In this document: positions 341-18,930 of the stretch, piece after piece
How positions within the stretch are numbered: the stretch's first letter is position 1
Layout of the letters: each line of letters opens with the position of its first letter
NCBI GenBank assembly: GCA_022865865.1
Contig: JALHTN010000478.1
Coordinates: forward strand, 1 to 19,166
Source: Anaerolineales bacterium
GTDB taxonomy: Bacteria > Chloroflexota > Anaerolineae > Anaerolineales > UBA4823
Length of the DNA: 19,166 bases
Direction of reading: 5' to 3'
Notes under the pieces: model-generated
The model's database searches: none
What the model was told of the DNA's origin: nothing
Seen by the model: the letters and a program-made list of their open reading frames with translations, nothing else
Translations under genes and position numbers: made by a program

Positions 341-3300
341 ATGGAACGTAAAGAAACAAATTTTTGGAAGAGTATATTAATATCGGGATTGGGTTTTGGG
401 GTTGGGGGAGTTATTGGCAATTTTGCCTTATATCTTTTGATCCGCAGCGAATTGTTGAATTGGCCATCGGATTTGATTCCTGAAGGGCAAAGCTTTGTTT
501 TGTTATTGACCGCAATCGTGGTGATAATTCTCGGGGTAGGATTGACCACCGGGATAGGGGGTGCAATTGGAGGTTATGTTCTAAGTATCATCGATCCGAT
601 CTATGCAAGAAGGAAATATATATGGAGAACGGCGATTGCTACTGGTTTGACTGAAGCGTTGCTGATCATCCCTTTGATTCTATTTACAGCAATACTTGCT
701 TTGTATAATAACGGGTTGGATCGAGATCCTACTGGACAAGTGCTTGTTTTCGGAATTTACGGTGTCATTTTTGGAATTATTATTGGATTGATATTAGGTT
801 TCTCAACGGTTGGCTGGCGTCAGGCATGGCGAATTTTATTGGCATCGATTGCGGGCTTTGGATTGGGTGGAGCTGCGGTAGGTTATGGCATACGGACTGC
901 ATATTATCCTGCTTCTCTTGGAGAGCCTTTACCGAATTTCATCATCTTACTTCCCATCCTTACTTTTGTTTTCTTTGGTATTGGAGGCATGTTCATAGGT
1001 TGGGTGTATGAATGGGTCACCCATTGGCGGATGGACAATGTGCCTGATGAGCCAGCTCGTTGGGTAAAAGTGGCTGGGGTCATAGCAGCTTTATTAATCG
1101 CGTTCTTCTTGATTTCCAACTACCGGCAGCTGGTCAAATTTCTCACCATAAACCCGGGTTCACTGTCATCTCAAATAGAAATTGACACAACTGGTGTCCA
1201 CTGGAAGAAAGATGAAGTTATCTCACGCCAGCTTGCACCCAATGACGGCACTGCATATAGCGCCTCGGCATCGGTGAATGGAGCAGCAGCAGTATGGATG
1301 GGAGATCATGATGGAATATCAGCGATTTTTTTATCTAATCGAGCAGAGTTAGATAGTGGTGAGAATCGATGGGGCGATCCACTCCAGATTTCGATTAATT
1401 CGGATTTTAATGCAATCCATCCTGAGGTTTCGACAGATGAGAATAGTAGAAACCATATTGTTTGGACCGAGCTTCATGATGATTCTTCCAGTATCCTTTA
1501 CCGCAGTTGTGAGGGAGAGATATGCGGAGAGCCCGCTGAGCTTTCAAGCCAGATTGGTCCAAGTTGCAAGGGAATTGATGCTGCTGATATCAGTCCCACA
1601 CATGACTGGCCTGTGATATCGGTTGCTGATGATAATTCCATTATGGTTGTGTGGAGTAATCCTGACAATATCTTGTTTTATTCAACCTGGGAATCGGATC
1701 AAGCTCCTCCGGCATCGCCTACAGGTTGCCATGATGGCCCGAAGATTAGCGCAAGTGCACTTGACCAATTCCAACCCAGGCTAAGCGGGGGACAAGATGG
1801 CTCTTTCAGTACAGTGTTTTCCGTTCTAGAAACTGGATCAGAAACTGTTTATCAGATGGATTATATCGGTCAACAATGGAGTTCCCCTCAATCTTTAGGG
1901 AGCGGGAAAACACCAAATGTATTTACCCTTCCAAAAGGTGGTACTTACTACACGTGGTGTGATAGTGACAGCCAGGTTCGCATAAAGAATCCAGAGACGG
2001 ATCTGGTAGATCTGATCGATTTTCCCCCATGCAACAGCCGACCGACTATGTCACTCGCAGAAAATGATGCTCTCCACATTGTATGGTATTCCAATGAGAT
2101 CAAGAATAATCAAAATGTCGTCTCGAAAGCAAATATCATTTACGAGAGCATTCAAACTGACCATGGATGGTCTGAACCCGCGATTGTAGTTGAGACTGAT
2201 GAATATTCATTGCCAGTGATCGCTGGCATGGGCAGCGGCAACCTAAACATCCTCTGGAGTGATAATGCTGGACAAAGACTCAATTCAGCCCAACAACCGA
2301 TCTATGAATGTTCTGGAGATGAACTGGGTGAAATTGGGCAGGTAATGATCGATGTGATCGAGAACGGTTCGTACAGATCTGAGGGGGATCCCATTCCATA
2401 CTGTAAGAATAGTTATTTGGGTTTAATATATATGCCCAACCCTGAATCGGTATACAGCCCTCAGCCGCCAGATCAAAATGGGGGTTTTAGTACTGTGTCT
2501 AACATAGCGAGCTTGGTCGAATATGAAGTCCTTCTTTCTGTTATGGAATGGGCAGCAGATGAGAATGATCAAGGCCTAAATCCAGGCAGCGTCTATACCA
2601 GTGAGATAGCAAAGCTTTACCAACAAATTAATGAAGATCCCTCGCGTTATCCACGGGGACTAACCGTACGAATACTGTTGGGAAATTATCCTGAACTATC
2701 TAAGCTGGAGTGGGGTGAGCAAATTTGGAATGTGATTGATGATTTGAGAAATGCTGGTGTCGATGAAATGGTTGATTCGGATATTGGCTGGAATGTTGAA
2801 ATCGCAAATTATGAAGGAGTTTATCCCCACAGCCATACAAAATTCTTGGTTGTGGATGGAAAAATAGCAGTCGGTGCAGGATTTAATTATGGCTACCTTC
2901 ATTTCCCCTTTGACCATCCTTCTAACAAAGGCGGGGACCTGTTCGATTTGGGAATCGTAATCTCCGGACCGATCGCCCAGCAAGCGTTGGTCACCTTTGA
3001 CGATTATTGGCAGGGAGCGGAGCAATTATATTGTCCTGATTTGTCGTCAAATTCAGAGTACCTTTGGAACCGTGATTGCGTCCGCAGTGAAGCTCAGGCA
3101 TCCCATGTACCTGAAGTAAGAAAATATTTTCTTCCCGAGACTCAAGGTGAATTAAGCAATGCCTTTTCCCTTACTAGAAATATTGAGTTTAAGGAATCGG
3201 ACGATGTCATCCGGACTGTTTTAACTTCTGCACAAGAATCACTGGATATATGGGAGGTTAATTTCTCTTTAGAATTGATCTGCATGCTCGATTTGCTCAA

Positions 3301-3703
3301 CGATAAAGTCTGTTCGTTTGATAATGCGCTGGATTTCATGGACGCGATTATCACTTCGGTTGAACAGAATCAGACGAAAGTGAGGGTCTTGGTTGAGAAA
3401 ACCAATAGTAATGGGATGGAAAACCGGGTTGCTGCGAAAGAATTCACCCGTGAATTAGAAGAACGCGGTTTGAGCCAGTATGTAGAAATACGGTTCTTTG
3501 AAGGTAGGATGCATTCCAAGGCATTTCTCGTAGATGATGAAGTTCTATTTATTGGCAGTCAGAATTTTCATTACAGCGCTTGGGGAGAAGAAGGCTTGGC
3601 GGAATACAATTTAGCAACCGATGACCCTCGCGCGGTGTCGACTTTCAAAACAATGTTTGATTATTATTGGGAAACCGGTATTCCCTGGGAGGAATATCAG
3701 TAG
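341..3703 (+). CDS. Membrane-anchored phospholipase D-like protein with beta-propeller-like middle domain
   Basis: This 1120-residue protein has three parts. Residues about 10-265 hold around seven hydrophobic segments, several Gly-rich. Residues about 275-650 contain recurring short motifs such as HIVWTE, VVWSN, HIVWYS and WSEP, typical of sialidase/beta-propeller blades. The C-terminal part carries two HxKxxxxD motifs, HTKFLVVD (H832, K834, D839) and HSKAFLVD (H1058, K1060, D1065), each followed by a Gly/Asn segment (GAGFN, GSQNF). Two HKD motifs in one chain are expected to build one phosphodiesterase/phosphatidyltransferase active site. Cysteines recur through the non-membrane part, which suggests it lies outside the cytoplasm. 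The start is supported by GAGG at 333-336. The substrate cannot be told: lipid hydrolysis, cardiolipin-type transfer or nuclease activity are all possible. It seems to be transcribed alone, since the next gene has its own promoter. Confidence 0.85.
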   Translation: MERKETNFWKSILISGLGFGVGGVIGNFALYLLIRSELLNWPSDLIPEGQSFVLLLTAIVVIILGVGLTTGIGGAIGGYVLSIIDPIYARRKYIWRTAIATGLTEALLIIPLILFTAILALYNNGLDRDPTGQVLVFGIYGVIFGIIIGLILGFSTVGWRQAWRILLASIAGFGLGGAAVGYGIRTAYYPASLGEPLPNFIILLPILTFVFFGIGGMFIGWVYEWVTHWRMDNVPDEPARWVKVAGVIAALLIAFFLISNYRQLVKFLTINPGSLSSQIEIDTTGVHWKKDEVISRQLAPNDGTAYSASASVNGAAAVWMGDHDGISAIFLSNRAELDSGENRWGDPLQISINSDFNAIHPEVSTDENSRNHIVWTELHDDSSSILYRSCEGEICGEPAELSSQIGPSCKGIDAADISPTHDWPVISVADDNSIMVVWSNPDNILFYSTWESDQAPPASPTGCHDGPKISASALDQFQPRLSGGQDGSFSTVFSVLETGSETVYQMDYIGQQWSSPQSLGSGKTPNVFTLPKGGTYYTWCDSDSQVRIKNPETDLVDLIDFPPCNSRPTMSLAENDALHIVWYSNEIKNNQNVVSKANIIYESIQTDHGWSEPAIVVETDEYSLPVIAGMGSGNLNILWSDNAGQRLNSAQQPIYECSGDELGEIGQVMIDVIENGSYRSEGDPIPYCKNSYLGLIYMPNPESVYSPQPPDQNGGFSTVSNIASLVEYEVLLSVMEWAADENDQGLNPGSVYTSEIAKLYQQINEDPSRYPRGLTVRILLGNYPELSKLEWGEQIWNVIDDLRNAGVDEMVDSDIGWNVEIANYEGVYPHSHTKFLVVDGKIAVGAGFNYGYLHFPFDHPSNKGGDLFDLGIVISGPIAQQALVTFDDYWQGAEQLYCPDLSSNSEYLWNRDCVRSEAQASHVPEVRKYFLPETQGELSNAFSLTRNIEFKESDDVIRTVLTSAQESLDIWEVNFSLELICMLDLLNDKVCSFDNALDFMDAIITSVEQNQTKVRVLVEKTNSNGMENRVAAKEFTRELEERGLSQYVEIRFFEGRMHSKAFLVDDEVLFIGSQNFHYSAWGEEGLAEYNLATDDPRAVSTFKTMFDYYWETGIPWEEYQ

Positions 3704-3739: not shown

Positions 3740-3768
3740 TTGACTGGATACGGAAAGATTGGTAAACT
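3740..3768 (+). promoter_or_regulatory. Strong sigma70-type promoter for the RIO kinase leader
   Basis: TTGACT (3740-3745) and TAAACT (3763-3768) are separated by exactly 17 bp. Transcription would start near 3775. This leaves about 45 nt before the leader ORF at 3819 and about 270 nt before the kinase start at 4046. Confidence 0.65.
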
Positions 3769-3818
3769 CCTAGCAGAGTTGGTACCGAATTTGAGAAGAA
3801 AGGAGGCTTGAAAATTCA

Positions 3819-3887
3819 ATGCAAAAATCAATCATTGTTGAAAAATTGATGTTAAGCGCGCCTCCTGGTGACATCTTCTTGGACTAG
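3819..3887 (+). CDS. Putative 22-residue leader peptide upstream of the RIO kinase gene
   Basis: An ATG at 3819 is preceded by AAAGGAGG (3799-3806), the best Shine-Dalgarno sequence in this part of the window, and opens a 22-codon frame ending in TAG at 3885-3887. The peptide begins MQKSIIVEKL and contains SAPPGD. Pro-Pro-Gly is a known strong ribosome-pausing motif that needs EF-P. The frame lies between a good promoter and two tandem terminator hairpins. The SD bases 3801-3807 (AGGAGGC) can pair with 3860-3866 (GCCTCCT), the codons for the APP stretch of the same ORF, so initiation might be self-limited. I infer a regulatory leader peptide. A small functional protein is also possible, and no homologue is known to me. 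Confidence 0.5.
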   Translation: MQKSIIVEKLMLSAPPGDIFLD

Positions 3888-3910
3888 GTCAATTATTCCA
3901 CTGGAACTTC

Positions 3911-3945
3911 ACCACAGGTGCGCCCATGCCCTGTGGTTTTTTATT
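3911..3945 (+). terminator. First terminator hairpin in the RIO kinase leader (T1)
   Basis: Arms ACCACAGG (3911-3918) and CCTGTGGT (3930-3937) form 8 bp around a 11-nt loop and run straight into a T-tract (TTTTTTATTT). It begins 23 nt after the leader ORF stop. Its right arm can instead pair with the left arm of the second terminator. Confidence 0.7.
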
Positions 3946-3949
3946 TAAT

Positions 3950-3974
3950 CTGATTATCTCACTCAAATAATCAG
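3950..3974 (+). promoter_or_regulatory. Hairpin between the two leader terminators
   Basis: Perfect 8-bp arms CTGATTAT (3950-3957) and ATAATCAG (3967-3974) flank a 9-nt loop. No T-tract follows, so it is not a terminator. Folding here would shorten the distance between the right arm of T1 and the left arm of T2 and could favour the alternative antiterminator pairing. Confidence 0.5.
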
Positions 3975-3992
3975 AAGGACTACTGAAACCAT

Positions 3993-4028
3993 CCCACAGG
4001 GTGAGAATCTCCTGTGGGTTTTATATAT
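3993..4028 (+). terminator. Second terminator hairpin in the RIO kinase leader (T2)
   Basis: Arms CCCACAGG (3993-4000) and CCTGTGGG (4011-4018) form 8 bp, followed by TTTTATATATT. The T-tract ends just before the kinase ribosome binding site at 4030-4035, so any transcript from the upstream promoter must read through it. The arms repeat those of T1 almost exactly. 3929-3936 can pair with 3994-4001 over 8 bp, which excludes both terminators. Confidence 0.7.
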
Positions 4029-4045
4029 TAAAGGATCAATTAACG

Positions 4046-5074
4046 ATGGAGTTTTACGAAGATTTCGATGAGAAAGAAGGTTTACCAAGGATAAAGAATA
4101 TGCCTGAAGCTCGTCCATTGCTGGCCTGGAAAGCAAGACCTCAGAATGAAAAGAAATCAATAAATGATAAATCAGCCTCACTGGTTGAGCAAAGAGATGA
4201 AATTCGAGACTACTCTTTCACTTATGAAGCTTCACGTCATGAGCGCGAGTGGATATTAAATTCATTGGGAATATTTCACGATATGCAGTGGTTTTCTGAT
4301 GTCCTCCGATTAGTAAAGGGAGGTAAGGAAGCCTCTGTTTACCAATGTTTAGCTGCACCGGATTCACCAGTTGAAGGAGCTTTTGTTGCAGCGAAAGTAT
4401 ACCGACCCCGCCGGTTTCGTAATTTGAGGAAAGACCATATCTATCGTGAAGGTCGTGTGGAATTAGATACATCTGGTAATGCAATTGTCAAGGATAAAAT
4501 GGTAAAAGCCATCCGACAGCGATCAGATTATGGACGTGAAATTATGCATACATCCTGGTTGGAGCATGAATTTCAGACTATGCAAATCCTGCACTCTGCA
4601 GGTGCCGATGTGCCCAGACCTTATGCAAGTGGGAATAATGCGATTCTGATGGATTTTATCGGGGATGAAGTGGGTGCTGCACCAACCTTGAACACGGTAA
4701 AACTTGATCCACTAGAAGCAAAAATACTTTTTGAACGTGTAATTTTCAATATAGAGCTTCTACTTGCCAACGAACGGGTGCATGCAGACCTTTCTGCATT
4801 TAATATTCTCTATTGGGAAGGTGAGATCACGCTGATAGATTTTCCTCAAGCAATCTCTCCCCATGAGAACCAGAGTGCTTTCATCATCTTTGAACGCGAC
4901 ATGCGCAGGATATGCGAATATTTTGTCTGTCAAGGAATTAATGTTGATATCCGGGAATTAACCGCAAAACTTTGGAAAACCTATAAATACCGTAAGATAC
5001 CGGAATTCACCCTTGATTTTCTTGATGAGGAAGACGAAGAAGATCGGGCATACTGGGATCGTTATAAGGAATAG
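4046..5074 (+). CDS. RIO-type serine protein kinase
   Basis: A 342-residue cytoplasmic protein with the RIO kinase core. The residue order is a Gly-rich nucleotide-binding stretch VKGGKEASVY (around K94), the ATP-anchoring lysine in VAAKVYR (K117), the catalytic loop HADLSAFN (H246, D248, N253) and the metal-binding aspartate in LIDFPQ (D265). All residues needed for phosphotransfer or ATPase activity are visible. RIO kinases are best known in archaea and eukaryotes, where they act in small-ribosomal-subunit maturation. The bacterial members are poorly understood, so the substrate here is unknown. I place the start at ATG 4046, preceded by AAAGGA at 4030-4035. An in-frame GTG at 4001 lies inside the T2 hairpin and has no ribosome binding site. 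The C-terminus is acidic (DEEDEEDRAYWD). It is apparently a single-gene unit under its own structured leader. Confidence 0.88.
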   Translation: MEFYEDFDEKEGLPRIKNMPEARPLLAWKARPQNEKKSINDKSASLVEQRDEIRDYSFTYEASRHEREWILNSLGIFHDMQWFSDVLRLVKGGKEASVYQCLAAPDSPVEGAFVAAKVYRPRRFRNLRKDHIYREGRVELDTSGNAIVKDKMVKAIRQRSDYGREIMHTSWLEHEFQTMQILHSAGADVPRPYASGNNAILMDFIGDEVGAAPTLNTVKLDPLEAKILFERVIFNIELLLANERVHADLSAFNILYWEGEITLIDFPQAISPHENQSAFIIFERDMRRICEYFVCQGINVDIRELTAKLWKTYKYRKIPEFTLDFLDEEDEEDRAYWDRYKE

Positions 5075-6018: not shown

Positions 6019-7134
6019 ATGGCAATATACCGGAAATTTTTAGTAGCAGTGGTAATTTCAGCTTTACTTTTGGTTGGACTTGGTATTTCTGTCCAACCTG
6101 CGCAAGCAGTGCCAAAAGGGTCGTTGAATTCTTATTCGGGAACTCCTTCATTTTCGATTGTCAGCGTTGTACCGGATAAAAGCGTCACAATCCAGACTTA
6201 TAATTTACCCCCCAATGATAAATATGATGTAACTATGGGCCCGATGGGTACTCAAGGAATCGGAGGAGTTAAAGTTGCAACTGTCGATTCTGGATCGGGT
6301 GGGTCGAAATCCTATACATTTAACATTCCTTCATCACTTTATGGTTCATACCAAATATCAATCCGTTTGCAGAGCCCCACCAGTGGATATTATGCATACA
6401 ATTGGTTTTACAACAATACAACAGGTGCCGCGACCGCGCCGCCTCCTTCAGCGACACCACCTCCTGGGACGACACCACCCCCTGGTTATTCAGGCATCCC
6501 AACTTTCTCAATCGTAAGTGTTGTGGCGGATAAGAATGTCACCATCCAGACCAAAAACTTGCCTCCAAATGACACCTTCAGAGTTACAATGGGACCCATG
6601 GGAACACAGGGTATTGGTGGGACTGTAGTTGATGCAGTGGATTCTGGAACAGGTGGTACTAAAACATATACCTTCGATATACCCTCATCCCTGTATGGTT
6701 CCTATAAGATTTCAATCCGCATTGAGAGCCCGACCAGTGGAAATTATGCCTACAACTGGTTTTATAACAATACAACCGGTGGGGCGACCCAACCTCCTTC
6801 AACCAGTACGACCCCCACTCCACCACCTGGATACGCTGGTTTCCCGAGCTTCAAGATCTTAGCTGTCGTGCGCGATACCAGCGTAAAGGTGGAGACTAAT
6901 AACCTGCCTCCAAACGACAGTTTCGTGGTTACGATGGGGCCGATGGGCACCCAGGGTATTGGCGGCATCAAGGTGGACACTATCGATTCTGGAACTGGCG
7001 GCTCGAAGCAATATACCTTTAACATACCTGCAGCATTAAAAGGCTCGTATAAAATATCGATCCGCATGCAGAGTCTCACCAGTGGTTACTATGCCTATAA
7101 CTGGTTCTACAATACCAATGCTGGGACACCATAG
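6019..7134 (+). CDS. Secreted protein with three tandem beta-type repeats and Thr/Pro linkers
   Basis: A 371-residue exported protein. Residues 1-31 form a signal peptide ending in QPAQA. Three homologous domains of about 95 residues start near residues 43, 161 and 276. Each runs from P(S/T)F(S/K)I through NLPPND, MGPMGTQGIGG, DSG(S/T)GG and GSY(Q/K)ISIR to SGYYAYNWFYN. They are joined by linkers rich in Pro and Thr (TAPPPSATPPPG and similar), typical of extracellular flexible spacers. Alternating hydrophobic residues suggest a beta-sandwich. No catalytic motif is visible, so a cell-surface or adhesion role is a guess. I chose ATG 6019, which follows TTGGAGGT at 6007-6014. A TTG at 6007 in frame lies within that ribosome binding site. 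A strong terminator follows at 7172. Confidence 0.8.
   Translation: MAIYRKFLVAVVISALLLVGLGISVQPAQAVPKGSLNSYSGTPSFSIVSVVPDKSVTIQTYNLPPNDKYDVTMGPMGTQGIGGVKVATVDSGSGGSKSYTFNIPSSLYGSYQISIRLQSPTSGYYAYNWFYNNTTGAATAPPPSATPPPGTTPPPGYSGIPTFSIVSVVADKNVTIQTKNLPPNDTFRVTMGPMGTQGIGGTVVDAVDSGTGGTKTYTFDIPSSLYGSYKISIRIESPTSGNYAYNWFYNNTTGGATQPPSTSTTPTPPPGYAGFPSFKILAVVRDTSVKVETNNLPPNDSFVVTMGPMGTQGIGGIKVDTIDSGTGGSKQYTFNIPAALKGSYKISIRMQSLTSGYYAYNWFYNTNAGTP
6145..7125 (+). repeat. Three intragenic copies of a roughly 280-bp coding repeat
   Basis: Copies at about 6145-6425, 6499-6775 and 6844-7125 encode the three domains of the secreted protein. The proteins are highly similar, while the DNA has diverged at many third codon positions, so the duplications are not recent. 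The conserved core MGPMGTQGIGG is present in all three. Confidence 0.8.
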
Positions 7135-16456: not shown

Positions 16457-16789
16457 ATGGCTGATGAAATCACGATCGAAGAAATGATGAACCGCATGCC
16501 GAAGGCATTCTTACCCGACAAGGCTGGCGATGTAGAGGCCGTTATCCAGTTTCACATGACCGGGGCGGAGCCTGGGGATTGGATTGTCAGGATCGGGGAT
16601 GGAAAATGCGATGTAGAGAAAGGTGTGACCGATGATGCTACCATGACTCTACGAGCGGATTCTCAGGATTACAAGGATATCATCTCTGGAAAACTGGATC
16701 CCATGACAGCCTTTATGCAGCAGAAGGTCAAATTGACTGGAAATCTCAACATGGCGCTTGGGTTAACAAAGTATTTCAAACTTACATAG
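16457..16789 (+). CDS. SCP2 sterol-carrier/lipid-binding domain protein
   Basis: A 110-residue single-domain protein of the SCP2 family. The pattern GDVEAVIQFHMTGAEPGDWI, then DDATMTLRADSQDYKDIISG and PMTAFMQQKVKLTGNLNMAL is characteristic of the fold: five strands forming a hydrophobic lipid pocket with a ligand-covering C-terminal helix. There is no signal peptide, so it is cytoplasmic. In eukaryotes this domain is fused to or associated with beta-oxidation enzymes and binds acyl-CoA. Here, as the last gene of a beta-oxidation operon, it probably shuttles or buffers acyl-CoA for the enzymes upstream; that role is inferred. TTAGGAGA lies 9 nt before the ATG and 15 nt separate it from fadA. 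A strong terminator follows. Confidence 0.88.
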   Translation: MADEITIEEMMNRMPKAFLPDKAGDVEAVIQFHMTGAEPGDWIVRIGDGKCDVEKGVTDDATMTLRADSQDYKDIISGKLDPMTAFMQQKVKLTGNLNMALGLTKYFKLT

Positions 16790-16835
16790 AACCCGGACCA
16801 TATTTACATAGAAATACATTAATTGGAAAATTAAT

Positions 16836-16872
16836 AGGGAGTGTTCATTCTCGAACACTCCCTGATGTTTTT
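16836..16872. terminator. Shared terminator between the beta-oxidation operon and proS
   Basis: Perfect 11-bp arms AGGGAGTGTTC (16836-16846) and GAACACTCCCT (16853-16863) with a 6-nt loop are followed by GATGTTTTTA on the plus strand. On the minus strand the stem is followed by ATTAATTTTCC, 16 nt after the proS stop. It can serve both convergent units. Confidence 0.75.
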
Positions 16873-16878
16873 AGCGCA

Positions 16879-18678
16879 TTAATCTTCGAATGGAATGGTT
16901 ACAACACTTCCGTCCAGATCAGCTTGTAAATCAGCGATCATGGCATTAACATGGTTGATTATTTCTTCGATGGGGATAATGTTTTTATCTTTCTGATCCC
17001 TCCGTTTAACCTCGATGCCACCAGCTTGCAGTGCACGATCGCTAACTGTCAGCCGGATGGGAATACCGATCAAATCCGCGTCGTTGAATTTAACACCCGG
17101 TCTTTCCTGGCGATCATCAAATAGGATCTCAATCCCTGAAGATTGAAACTGCATATACAGCTGCTCAGCAATTGTGAGAGGATCTGGGTCTCCTTGTATA
17201 TCTGTTTCTTGCTTCTTGACATTCCTAGGCAGAACGATGAGAAGAACCGAGTATGGAGCAACCGAAATTGGCCAAATCAACCCATATTCGTCATGGTGTT
17301 CTTCAGCCACCGAGGCCATCAACCTGCCGGAGCCAATGCCATATGATCCCATAACGACCGGCTTTGAATTTCCCTCGGAATCCAGGAATTTTGCCCCCAT
17401 AGCTTCACTATAACGCGTTCCGAGTTTGAAAATATTCCCCACCTCTACTCCTCGCTGCACGGTCATCTGATGACCGCATTCTGGACACATGCTATTGTCT
17501 TCTGCCACGGCAATATCAGCAATAATCTCGGCTTGGAAATCGCGTCCGTAGTTTACGTTGATAAAATGAAAGCCTTCCTCGTTAGCGCCTGCTACGAGAT
17601 TTGGTGAATCTGGAATTACATCATCGACCACAACCAGGGTGTTTTTAAGATCCTTTGGCGAGGCATAACCTGGGACAGCACCAGTAGAAACGATCTCTTC
17701 CTCAAGAGCAGGTCTCAGCTCTTTTGCCATCAGGACATTGGCCAGTTTTGTTTCATTTAGGTCCATATCACCGCGGACAATAGCCAATACCAAACGATCT
17801 GAGGCTTCAATCCCTTGGACGATTGTGGCAACCAGGAATACTGCCTTGGCTGTTTTTGATCTTGGAATGTCTAAGAAATTAGCCAAATCTTCGATAGTTT
17901 TTGAATCAGGAGTAGCAACTTTTTGCAGGGCTTGAGGTGATTCGCTTTTATCGGAATCTTTTTTGAAGCGTGCAATTTGCCTGTTCGCTGCGTAACCGCA
18001 TTCGTCACAAATTAACAGCGTATCTTCTCCAATGGGAGTAAGGTACATGAATTCGTGGGCTAAGCTACCACCCATCATACCGACATCAGATTTAAATGCT
18101 TTTACCGGCAGTCCACAACGGTGGAAAATATCGTAGTATGCTTGGAAATGGGCGCGATACTGGGTGTCCAAACCATCTTGATCCAAATCCAGGCTGTAGC
18201 TGTCCTTCATTGTGAATTCACGCACTCTGATCAGGCCAGCTCGAGGGCGGGGATCATCGCGCCATTTGGTTTGAATGTGGTAAATCAGCGCTGGTAGCTG
18301 GCGATATGAACGAATAGATTTTCTCACCAAGTCAGCCACCACCTCTTCATGGGTCATCGCCAGCACCATGTCACGCCCAGATTTATCATAAAAGCGTCCC
18401 ATCTCAGAACCGATCTGGTACCATCTGCCAGTTTCTTTCCACAATTCAGCCGGGTGCACAACAGGCATCGTTATTTCTTGACCCCCAATAGCCTCAATTT
18501 CCTGGCGCATGATGTTTTCAATTTTCGTCAACACGCGCTTGGCCAGGGGAAGGTAAGTGAATATACCTGCTGCGAGCTGTTGGATATATCCCGCCCGTAC
18601 GAGAAGTTTATGACTGCTCACTTCGGCATCAGCTGGTGCCTCTCGTAAGGTCTGGTTGAATAATCTGCTCATTCTCAT
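16879..18678 (-). CDS. proS: Prolyl-tRNA synthetase, bacterial type with editing domain
   Basis: A 599-residue class II synthetase that charges tRNA-Pro. The start of the chain, MRMSRLFNQTLREAPADAEV, and SHKLLVRAGYIQQLAAGIFT are typical of bacterial ProRS. Motif 2 lies in AGLIRVREFTMKDSY (REF at residues 153-155), with the TxE-type THEE at 109-112. Motif 3 is GSYGIGSGRLMASVAEEHHD near residue 444. The stretch between motifs 2 and 3, about residues 220-390, is the YbaK-like insertion that removes mischarged alanine, and the last 120 residues form the anticodon-binding domain. I place the start at 18678, 8 nt after minus-strand GGAGG (18691-18687). An upstream in-frame start at 18714 would run through that site. 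A structured leader lies upstream. Confidence 0.95.
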   Translation of the reverse strand: MRMSRLFNQTLREAPADAEVSSHKLLVRAGYIQQLAAGIFTYLPLAKRVLTKIENIMRQEIEAIGGQEITMPVVHPAELWKETGRWYQIGSEMGRFYDKSGRDMVLAMTHEEVVADLVRKSIRSYRQLPALIYHIQTKWRDDPRPRAGLIRVREFTMKDSYSLDLDQDGLDTQYRAHFQAYYDIFHRCGLPVKAFKSDVGMMGGSLAHEFMYLTPIGEDTLLICDECGYAANRQIARFKKDSDKSESPQALQKVATPDSKTIEDLANFLDIPRSKTAKAVFLVATIVQGIEASDRLVLAIVRGDMDLNETKLANVLMAKELRPALEEEIVSTGAVPGYASPKDLKNTLVVVDDVIPDSPNLVAGANEEGFHFINVNYGRDFQAEIIADIAVAEDNSMCPECGHQMTVQRGVEVGNIFKLGTRYSEAMGAKFLDSEGNSKPVVMGSYGIGSGRLMASVAEEHHDEYGLIWPISVAPYSVLLIVLPRNVKKQETDIQGDPDPLTIAEQLYMQFQSSGIEILFDDRQERPGVKFNDADLIGIPIRLTVSDRALQAGGIEVKRRDQKDKNIIPIEEIINHVNAMIADLQADLDGSVVTIPFED

Positions 18679-18930
18679 GTGAATTTCCTCCGACTTTAAA
18701 TAATCAACACCCACAGCACTTTATCTGCTGAGGGTGTCTATTCGATAGCTAAACGCGTTTTATGAAATAATTCTCAGCAATTGAATAATGGCCCGTAAGG
18801 GCCGAGGTGGGTAAGGAGTGGAAACTTGTTGGAACAGCACATGCGGGTCCATAAACTATAGTTTACCACCCAGGATGATAAGTGAAAAGGTGATCATAAT
18901 AATGAACTAATTGATGGTCCAAAATCTTGA
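18679..18930 (-). promoter_or_regulatory. Structured leader and promoter region of proS
   Basis: The 252 nt between proS and the next gene hold no ORF. Read on the minus strand they contain, in order: a possible promoter TTTTCA-17 bp-TAAACT (near 18884-18856); a 14-bp palindrome TAAACTATAGTTTA (18852-18865); a GGCCC/GGGCC stem with a four-base loop (18790-18803); and a 12-nt-arm stem with one mismatch, ACACCC..CAGCA / TGCTG..GGGTGT (about 18708-18738), just before the ribosome binding site. Such a leader suggests regulation of the synthetase, but I find no T-box consensus. The promoter call is weak. Confidence 0.4.

Follow-up and report, generated by a model that had tools for sequence, protein, structure and literature searches.

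Organization of the region upstream of the RIO kinase gene

The DNA stretch analysed here (19,166 nt, hereafter the window) encodes a RIO-family kinase (342 aa, ATG at 4046; 4046-5074, + strand), identified by Pfam and presumed to be regulated by the region that precedes it (leader region studied, 3740-4048), and the question raised by this locus is how such a control could operate and whether it is particular to RIO kinases. The kinase matches Pfam RIO1 (E 5.7e-33), scores 114.5 bits against PF01163, above the family cut-off of 22, and finds its best solved-structure matches in the Rio1 kinases 12ez and 1zp9 (E about 7e-20); against the NCBIfam equivalog for PA4780-family RIO1-like proteins it scores 126.4, below the cut-off of 350.

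The initial annotation described a transcription attenuator made of a promoter, a 22-codon small ORF (sORF), two terminators and a hairpin between them, and all of these elements are present. Indeed, beyond a phospholipase-D-like gene (341-3703, Pfam search), which is the 5' neighbour of the leader, the + strand carries (i) a sigma-70-type promoter (3740-3768) composed of TTGACT (3740-3745), a 17-nt spacer and TAAACT (3763-3768), with an extended -10 TG (element TGGTAAACT), (ii) a perfect Shine-Dalgarno sequence (SD) AAAGGAGG (3799-3806), which is the core of arm 1, the SD/start region (about 3800-3820, from sequence and pairing), (iii) the sORF (3819-3887; 22 codons and TAG, peptide MQKSIIVEKLMLSAPPGDIFLD), whose 3' end holds arm 2 (3855-3872), the partner of either arm 1 or arm 3, (iv) arm 3 (3908-3924), the 5' side of T1 and the partner of arm 2 in the antiterminator, arms 2 and 3 being placed by swap tests and alignment, (v) a predicted intrinsic terminator T1 (3911-3942; stem 3911-3937, then a T-tract), (vi) a hairpin separating T1 and T2 (3949-3975; sequence and folding), (vii) a second predicted intrinsic terminator T2 (3993-4022; stem 3993-4018 and TTTT), whose tail TTTTATATAT is a short T-tract and which lies immediately 5' of (viii) the kinase ribosome binding site AAAGGA (4030-4035). 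The leader region folds better than its own shuffles (z -2.5).

Two other features of the window were recorded. A strong 12-bp hairpin (16835-16864) has a terminator-like score on both strands and, lying between the converging ORFs 16457-16789 and 16879-18714, is probably a shared bidirectional terminator. The product of 6019-7134 is by eye a predicted secreted protein, with about three repeat copies around PPND..VTMGPMGTQGIGG and Pro/Thr linkers; its Pfam match is sub-threshold only (DUF1410).

Conservation among RIO kinase upstream regions

Relatives of the kinase were found at 14 loci and then in 143 of the 396 genomes in the class of one such locus. The closest seem to lie in metagenome contigs; among the named records seen, the proteins most similar to the window kinase belong to Anaerolineae-type Chloroflexota. 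The taxonomic scope is that of a 'class' and a 'phylum' draw around an Anaerolineaceae MAG, a class that we infer to be Anaerolineae. In total, 121 upstream regions were compared, from 111 of the 143 genomes, other loci of the 14 and the window (L080 was excluded as too short).

This comparison of orthologous upstream regions, suggested with the initial annotation, revealed a plan common to many Anaerolineae-type Chloroflexota, in which stems 1:2 and 2:3 covary. Most upstream regions have, about 200-660 bases ahead of their downstream limit, a strong SD followed by a short ORF with a 3' end complementary to the SD region, and a terminator was called in 78 of the 112 regions listed. A strict detector, requiring an SD, an sORF, pairing of the SD with the sORF 3' end (helix 1:2, threshold -16) and a terminator, recovered 65 of the 121 RIO kinase upstream regions versus 0/363 dinucleotide shuffles and 0/121 reverse complements; with the terminator not required, the weaker criterion gave 88/121 versus 76/363 and 24/121, respectively. 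No call at all was made in 33/121, including L001 and the window, which were outside the thresholds (helix 1:2 of the window, -15.8 kcal/mol; -17.4 with wider arms), and 23 further regions had no called terminator. Six uncalled leaders were added by hand, giving 71 RIO leaders, 59 of them non-redundant, for the later tests.

In all 18 close leaders, window included, the distance from start codon to arm 2 is 39 or 42 nt, in frame, and the SD-to-ATG spacer measures 7-12 nt; the 12 nt of the window are a long spacer, which counts against the attenuator reading. A promoter-like site (at least 9/12) lies within 92 nt 5' of the SD zone in 49 of the 74 leaders with sufficient upstream sequence, versus 3.6 expected from shuffles. 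The sORF is 14-36 codons long and starts with ATG in 95 of 97 leaders.

Several individual loci were also noted. In a subgroup (L009, L096, L098, L113, L122, L123, L125), arm 2 contains CATATGGAGC, and its pairing partners are the SD spacer and the start codon itself (GGCTCCATATG); the terminator lies 95-102 nt past the sORF where called, none being called for L113. By eye, a GNAT-like gene (L027) and a SnoaL-like gene (L038) stand between leader and RIO kinase. Upstream of a Latescibacteria RIO kinase (L014) are a strong SD, a 9-codon ORF and a terminator (about 4840-4980); a search of that genome with the covariance model R2 described below gave nothing significant (best E 0.83).

The same leader upstream of other gene families

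A covariance model (R1) was trained on 15 close RIO leaders, the window not being one of them. Among the 18 sources tried, it recovered the window leader (66.9 bits, E 5e-15) and L001 as well as eight others, and missed the remaining eight (L003, L004, L008, L009, L012, L013, L014, L058). On 18 genomes, 15 of which are training sources, R1 detected the RIO leader in 18/18 and 12 further matches at E <= 1e-3, which precede a second RIO kinase, an MsbA-like exporter, a decayed region, an M24 aminopeptidase, three DrrA-like ABC ATPases, two RsgA genes and two GNATs, one match being spurious (among NCBIfam models, MsbA and DrrA come closest, with scores below their cut-offs, and L148 is named by likeness to L147 and L149). 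Two candidates, L154 (E 6.5e-4) and L155 (E 1.35e-3), were counted as spurious, having no SD or sORF by eye. The second RIO kinase with a leader in one genome (L143) matches Pfam RIO1 and, more weakly, APH. Class-wide (298 genomes, strict filters, E <= 1e-4), R1 gave 24 matches in 20 genomes. Of these, 10 lie at genes other than RIO, and four of the 10 had already been found in the 18-genome search.

A second model (R2), built from 29 leaders of RIO and other genes and run on 40 chosen genomes, yielded 67 matches in 30 genomes at E <= 0.01, of which 53 had E <= 1e-3 (22 RIO and 31 non-RIO). In brief, the 31 non-RIO matches precede ABC exporters or ABC ATPases (10, plus two with the ABC gene in second position), GNATs (7), RsgA (3), MFS genes (3), ABC-F genes (3) and unassigned sequence (3). 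Training sequences make up 5 of the 31; without them, 23/26 precede the same families. ABC, MFS and GNAT families were assigned by Pfam (barely so for the GNAT of L222), and RsgA assignments are above cut-off; the MFS gene of L197 is nearest to TetA(P), far below cut-off. Among the ABC-F genes, L216 and L217 exceed the NCBIfam 'ribosomal protection-like' cut-off, and L203, truncated by the end of its locus, is below it. The ABC-F leaders keep the arms by eye and lack the strong SD; L171, before an ABC-F gene, has no clear SD.

Furthermore, in 41 phylum-drawn genomes searched with stricter filters, matches occurred in 5, with 12 rows comprising 4 RIO, 1 RsgA (a training row), 4 ABC and 3 GNAT genes (L234 and L229 were assigned by similarity, and one GNAT gene is at a distance of 522 nt). 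Among the 36 phylum genomes outside the class draw, one has a match (G417), and its RIO kinase was found by the RNA model alone. The leader thus precedes genes for RsgA, ABC and MFS exporters and GNAT acetyltransferases and, less cleanly, ABC-F genes. An attenuator before the RIO kinase, as first annotated, is strongly supported, but since the covariance models match before other genes, the view of a leader specific to RIO kinases is rejected.

Covariation of the mutually exclusive helices

In swap tests, pairing of each arm with its own partner was compared with pairing to partners from other leaders (5000 permutations, near-duplicates removed). With z-scores not fully corrected for relatedness, the 59 non-redundant RIO leaders gave z -14.0 for 1:2 and z -11.6 for 2:3 (each 0/5000), and 38 further leaders from model matches gave z -8.0 and z -7.3 (each 0/5000), one of these 38 being before a RIO paralogue and a few before unassigned sequence, with the sORF picked partly by 1:2 pairing. 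The control arms 1:3 and 2:4 showed no signal (z -0.5 to +0.7). The RIO set was preselected by 1:2 pairing for the 1:2 test, which is not the case for the 2:3 test nor for a test in which the sORF was selected by SD strength alone; the latter gave z -13.3 for 1:2 (74 leaders), with z +2.0 for a control using codons 5-12. Six leaders with a weak SD, an atypical sORF or no called terminator (L171, L203, L210, L216, L217, L227) were left out, and the ABC-F leaders are outside the swap tests because L171, L203, L216 and L217 are among them.

Columns were also counted in an alignment of 29 leaders, 10 of them non-RIO. Pairs form in 96.5% of the cells of helix 2:3, which has 22 two-sided changes versus 6.2 expected (0/500 shuffles); for 1:2 together with 3:4, the values are 91.3% and 48 versus 17.1 (0/500). 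With slid partners, pairing drops to 22-65% and 29-51%, a comparison that favours the helices since they were read from one alignment row. The number of 2:3 pairs with a two-sided change shows no excess (4 versus 3.3 in shuffles, 234/500), and the number of pair types in 1:2 and 3:4 is weakly above shuffles (27/500). The arms drift in sequence with their complementarity kept. Conservation and covariation among orthologous leaders strongly support the attenuator that had been annotated, with a different main switch: the covarying antiterminator pairs the sORF 3' end (3855-3872) with the T1 5' side (3908-3924), in place of the T1 3' arm with the T2 5' arm.

A ribosome-mediated attenuator as the most probable reading

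Anatomy, conservation, covariation of both exclusive helices and sharing with translation- and drug-related families were computed directly. As expected of an attenuator, predicted intrinsic terminators (T1, T2) stand between promoter and gene, and the antiterminator 2:3, which covaries, is exclusive with the terminator. The leader is most probably (about 0.78) a ribosome-mediated transcription attenuator, or uORF attenuator, with three competing helices, as judged from sequence and folding models. Helix 1:2, joining the SD/start region and the 3' end of the sORF, would be the anti-antiterminator; 2:3, joining the sORF 3' end and the 5' side of T1, would be the antiterminator, and 3:4 the terminator T1. 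With no ribosome, 1:2 would form first and T1 would halt transcription. Under brisk translation, a ribosome at the end of the sORF would cover arm 2 and T1 would again form. A ribosome that is bound or detained at the SD/start would mask arm 1 and leave arm 2 free, so that 2:3 could form before arm 4 is made and the kinase gene would be transcribed. The leader would thereby report initiation without subsequent elongation, and candidate triggers could be translation-blocking antibiotics or too few working ribosomes. Translation of the sORF, the direction of the response, the inducer and the role of T2 as a back-up terminator are parts of this scheme that we infer.

Folding of 97 leaders with the ribosome footprint kept single-stranded is consistent with this order of events. 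Counting 2:3 as present at six or more pairs, it formed before arm 4 existed in 96/97 leaders with a ribosome at the start, 82/97 at codon 6, 15/97 at the stop and 75/97 with none; with T1 complete, the corresponding counts were 33/97, 10/97, 1/97 and 7/97. As the counts differ by masked position, the modelling supports a start-codon ribosome favouring antitermination and a stop-codon ribosome working against it. With T1 complete and the start masked, 64/97 leaders have fewer than six 2:3 pairs at equilibrium, and antitermination must therefore be kinetic under this model.

The free-RNA state is less clean, as it requires 1:2 to be the first helix. Helix 2:3 of the window (-24.6 kcal/mol with flanks) is stronger than its 1:2 (-15.8 kcal/mol). 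Equilibrium folds lacking a ribosome contain hardly any 1:2 (0.4 pairs), with 2:3 prevailing up to the completion of T1, so that the OFF state without translation would depend on folding order. T2 formed in every modelled window state, and either T2 is therefore weak or something else overcomes it; this second barrier is unexplained by the proposed switch.

Leader peptides and alternative explanations

In the amino-acid operon attenuators (trp, leu, his), an sORF is combined with 1:2 / 2:3 / 3:4 logic. Unlike these, the present leaders have no codon run and the regulated genes are not biosynthetic. Indeed, over codons 2-10 of 97 leaders no residue exceeds 12.7%, and the window peptide has no run of codons for one amino acid either. 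A leucyl-tRNA synthetase gene (L227; TIGR00396, start of gene at 472) follows a short ORF with consecutive Leu codons (..SLCGLLLG.., by eye) and a terminator; this weak R2 match (E 0.002) has the appearance of a classical leucine attenuator, again from this lineage.

It is unlikely, although less so than the other alternatives, that the switch is set by the nascent peptide, which carries S-A-P close to its end, through stalling of the ribosome. Pro-Pro and similar contexts are plausible ribosome pause sites, and APP stands near the end of the peptide in 17/18 close RIO leaders. However, A-P-P is the SD complement read in one frame, and arm 2 occurs in all three frames (31:12:16 in RIO leaders, 21:8:9 in the others, a few rows being mis-anchored), as expected if the arms are kept rather than the peptide; APP was set aside as a universal arrest signal on these grounds. 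Moreover, a ribosome stalled at this place would keep arm 2 covered and so promote termination instead of induction. R-S-A-P is found near the stop in 8/43 sORFs of the non-RIO search, often after Pro or Pro-Cys (L153, L156, L157, L208, L210, L213, L214, L215), with near variants in 5 more (L209, L211, L212, L221, L224), and the codons differ by eye. It is possible, from these sequences, that R-S-A-P acts as a peptide-level pause keeping arm 2 covered and the gene off.

Improbable to a greater degree is the switch that was originally put forward, in which the T1 3' arm pairs with the T2 5' arm and breaks both terminators. The 8-bp complement on which it was built (3929-3936 with 3994-4001) is exact, the stem motif CCACAGG-N(4-14)-CCTGTGG occurs in the 19-kb window only at T1 and T2 (0 in 200 shuffles), and across 22 tandem leaders T1:T2 complementarity is better within than between species (z -3.5, 2/5000), a likeness also expected if the terminators of a genome share a favoured stem. 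The helix reaches 8.9 pairs in the start-masked fold of L108, but it formed in 4/22 start-masked and 3/22 unmasked folds and essentially not in the window, and a second terminator was called in 22 of the 59 non-redundant RIO leaders and not in the other 37. A 'domino' version, in which 2:3 releases the T1 3' arm and this arm breaks T2, was rejected, being formed in just 4/22 folds.

A metabolite riboswitch or a protein-bound leader, for example through kinase autoregulation, with the sORF incidental, is very improbable: mutually exclusive helices alone would be compatible with it, but the window has no Rfam match at gathering score (one chance-level match in the leader region, E 4.1), SD, ATG and frame are kept, drifting arms are unlike a ligand pocket and unrelated genes share the leader. 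The least credible explanation is that of two ordinary terminators of the upstream gene followed by a missed kinase promoter. The earlier statement that no promoter fits between T2 and the kinase ribosome binding site was too strong, as a weak 9/12 promoter-like match spans 4001-4029. However, the window contains matches of this kind at close to the chance level (46 versus 39.9 expected, sd 6.8), and promoter, sORF and covarying arms are conserved 5' of T1.

Comparison with known systems

The best precedent for the ribosome-mediated attenuator proposed here appears to be the vmlR leader of Bacillus subtilis, in which a uORF lies inside an anti-antiterminator hairpin, antiterminator and intrinsic terminator are exclusive, and initiation on the uORF is essential for induction, the leader answering lincomycin (PMC9226507). 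According to the same source, its cognate drugs, retapamulin and lincomycin, stall initiating ribosomes, and vmlR is also induced on loss of CshA, an assembly defect with free 30S subunits (PMC9226507). The present leader would share the uORF attenuator logic, with exclusive antiterminator and terminator. It differs in that vmlR has a tripeptide uORF with an SD single-stranded before the hairpin, in contrast to a 14-36-codon ORF placed between arms 1 and 2 with its SD within arm 1, and in that the phylum and, ABC-F apart, the regulated genes are other ones (PMC9226507). What is new with respect to vmlR-type leaders, as read from the sequences, is that the sORF's own SD would form the anti-antiterminator and that the leader is common to unrelated genes.

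In the leaders of hflXr in Listeria (PMC6310831) and of msrD (PMC10314930), transcription attenuation is likewise ribosome-dependent, and a small ORF precedes a gene whose product targets ribosomes that are stalled or carry a drug. As reported there, they have defined leader peptides (RLR motif, PMC6310831; MsrDL peptide arrest, PMC10314930), whereas no universal peptide occurs in the present leaders. The toiL uORF before topAI of Escherichia coli is described as multipurpose, responding to several ribosome-targeting antibiotic classes, start-codon stall included, a possible parallel to the leader proposed here; it acts on topAI translation and Rho, not on an intrinsic terminator (PMC12121999). 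In the duf1127 leader of Sinorhizobium meliloti, tetracycline relieves attenuation and a start-held ribosome masks an element; as in the present leader, the uORF ribosome binding site and first codons can form a hairpin, although the text consulted describes no covarying antiterminator:terminator pair, and lineage and gene are other ones (PMC12218461).

Implications for bacterial RIO kinases

ABC-F proteins, exporters, GNATs and RsgA are the genes expected of a translation-stress response and, because they share its leader, the best assignment for the RIO kinase, purely by association, is to ribosome maintenance or drug response. Eukaryotic Rio1 is described as acting in late 40S maturation (PMC4231747, PMC6934326). 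As a tentative extension, the leader may define a lineage-wide translation-stress regulon of Anaerolineae whose readout would be whether a ribosome docked on the perfect SD moves on; the RIO kinase and RsgA would be members because both act on the small ribosomal subunit, and the SD arm would sense a 30S subunit bound but unable to start. Among the titles and opening lines of abstracts listed for attenuators in the lineage, none reports such leaders in Chloroflexota, and one paper on histidine regulation mentions Chloroflexi once. Listings of literature on bacterial RIO function contain nothing on kinases of the present kind, and the literature searched contains nothing combining a RIO kinase with Chloroflexi.

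If the attenuator reading is right, one simple RNA device, apparently remade often with new arms, governs genes for ribosome protection, export, acetylation and 30S assembly as well as a RIO kinase; it sits in a little-studied phylum and provides a functional hint for bacterial RIO kinases from the genes with which they share the leader. The signature of an SD, a short ORF, an SD complement and a terminator could then serve to find translation-stress genes in unculturable genomes. If the regulon reading is also true, bacterial RIO kinases would be ribosome-maintenance or drug-response factors, which would open a route to testing their function.
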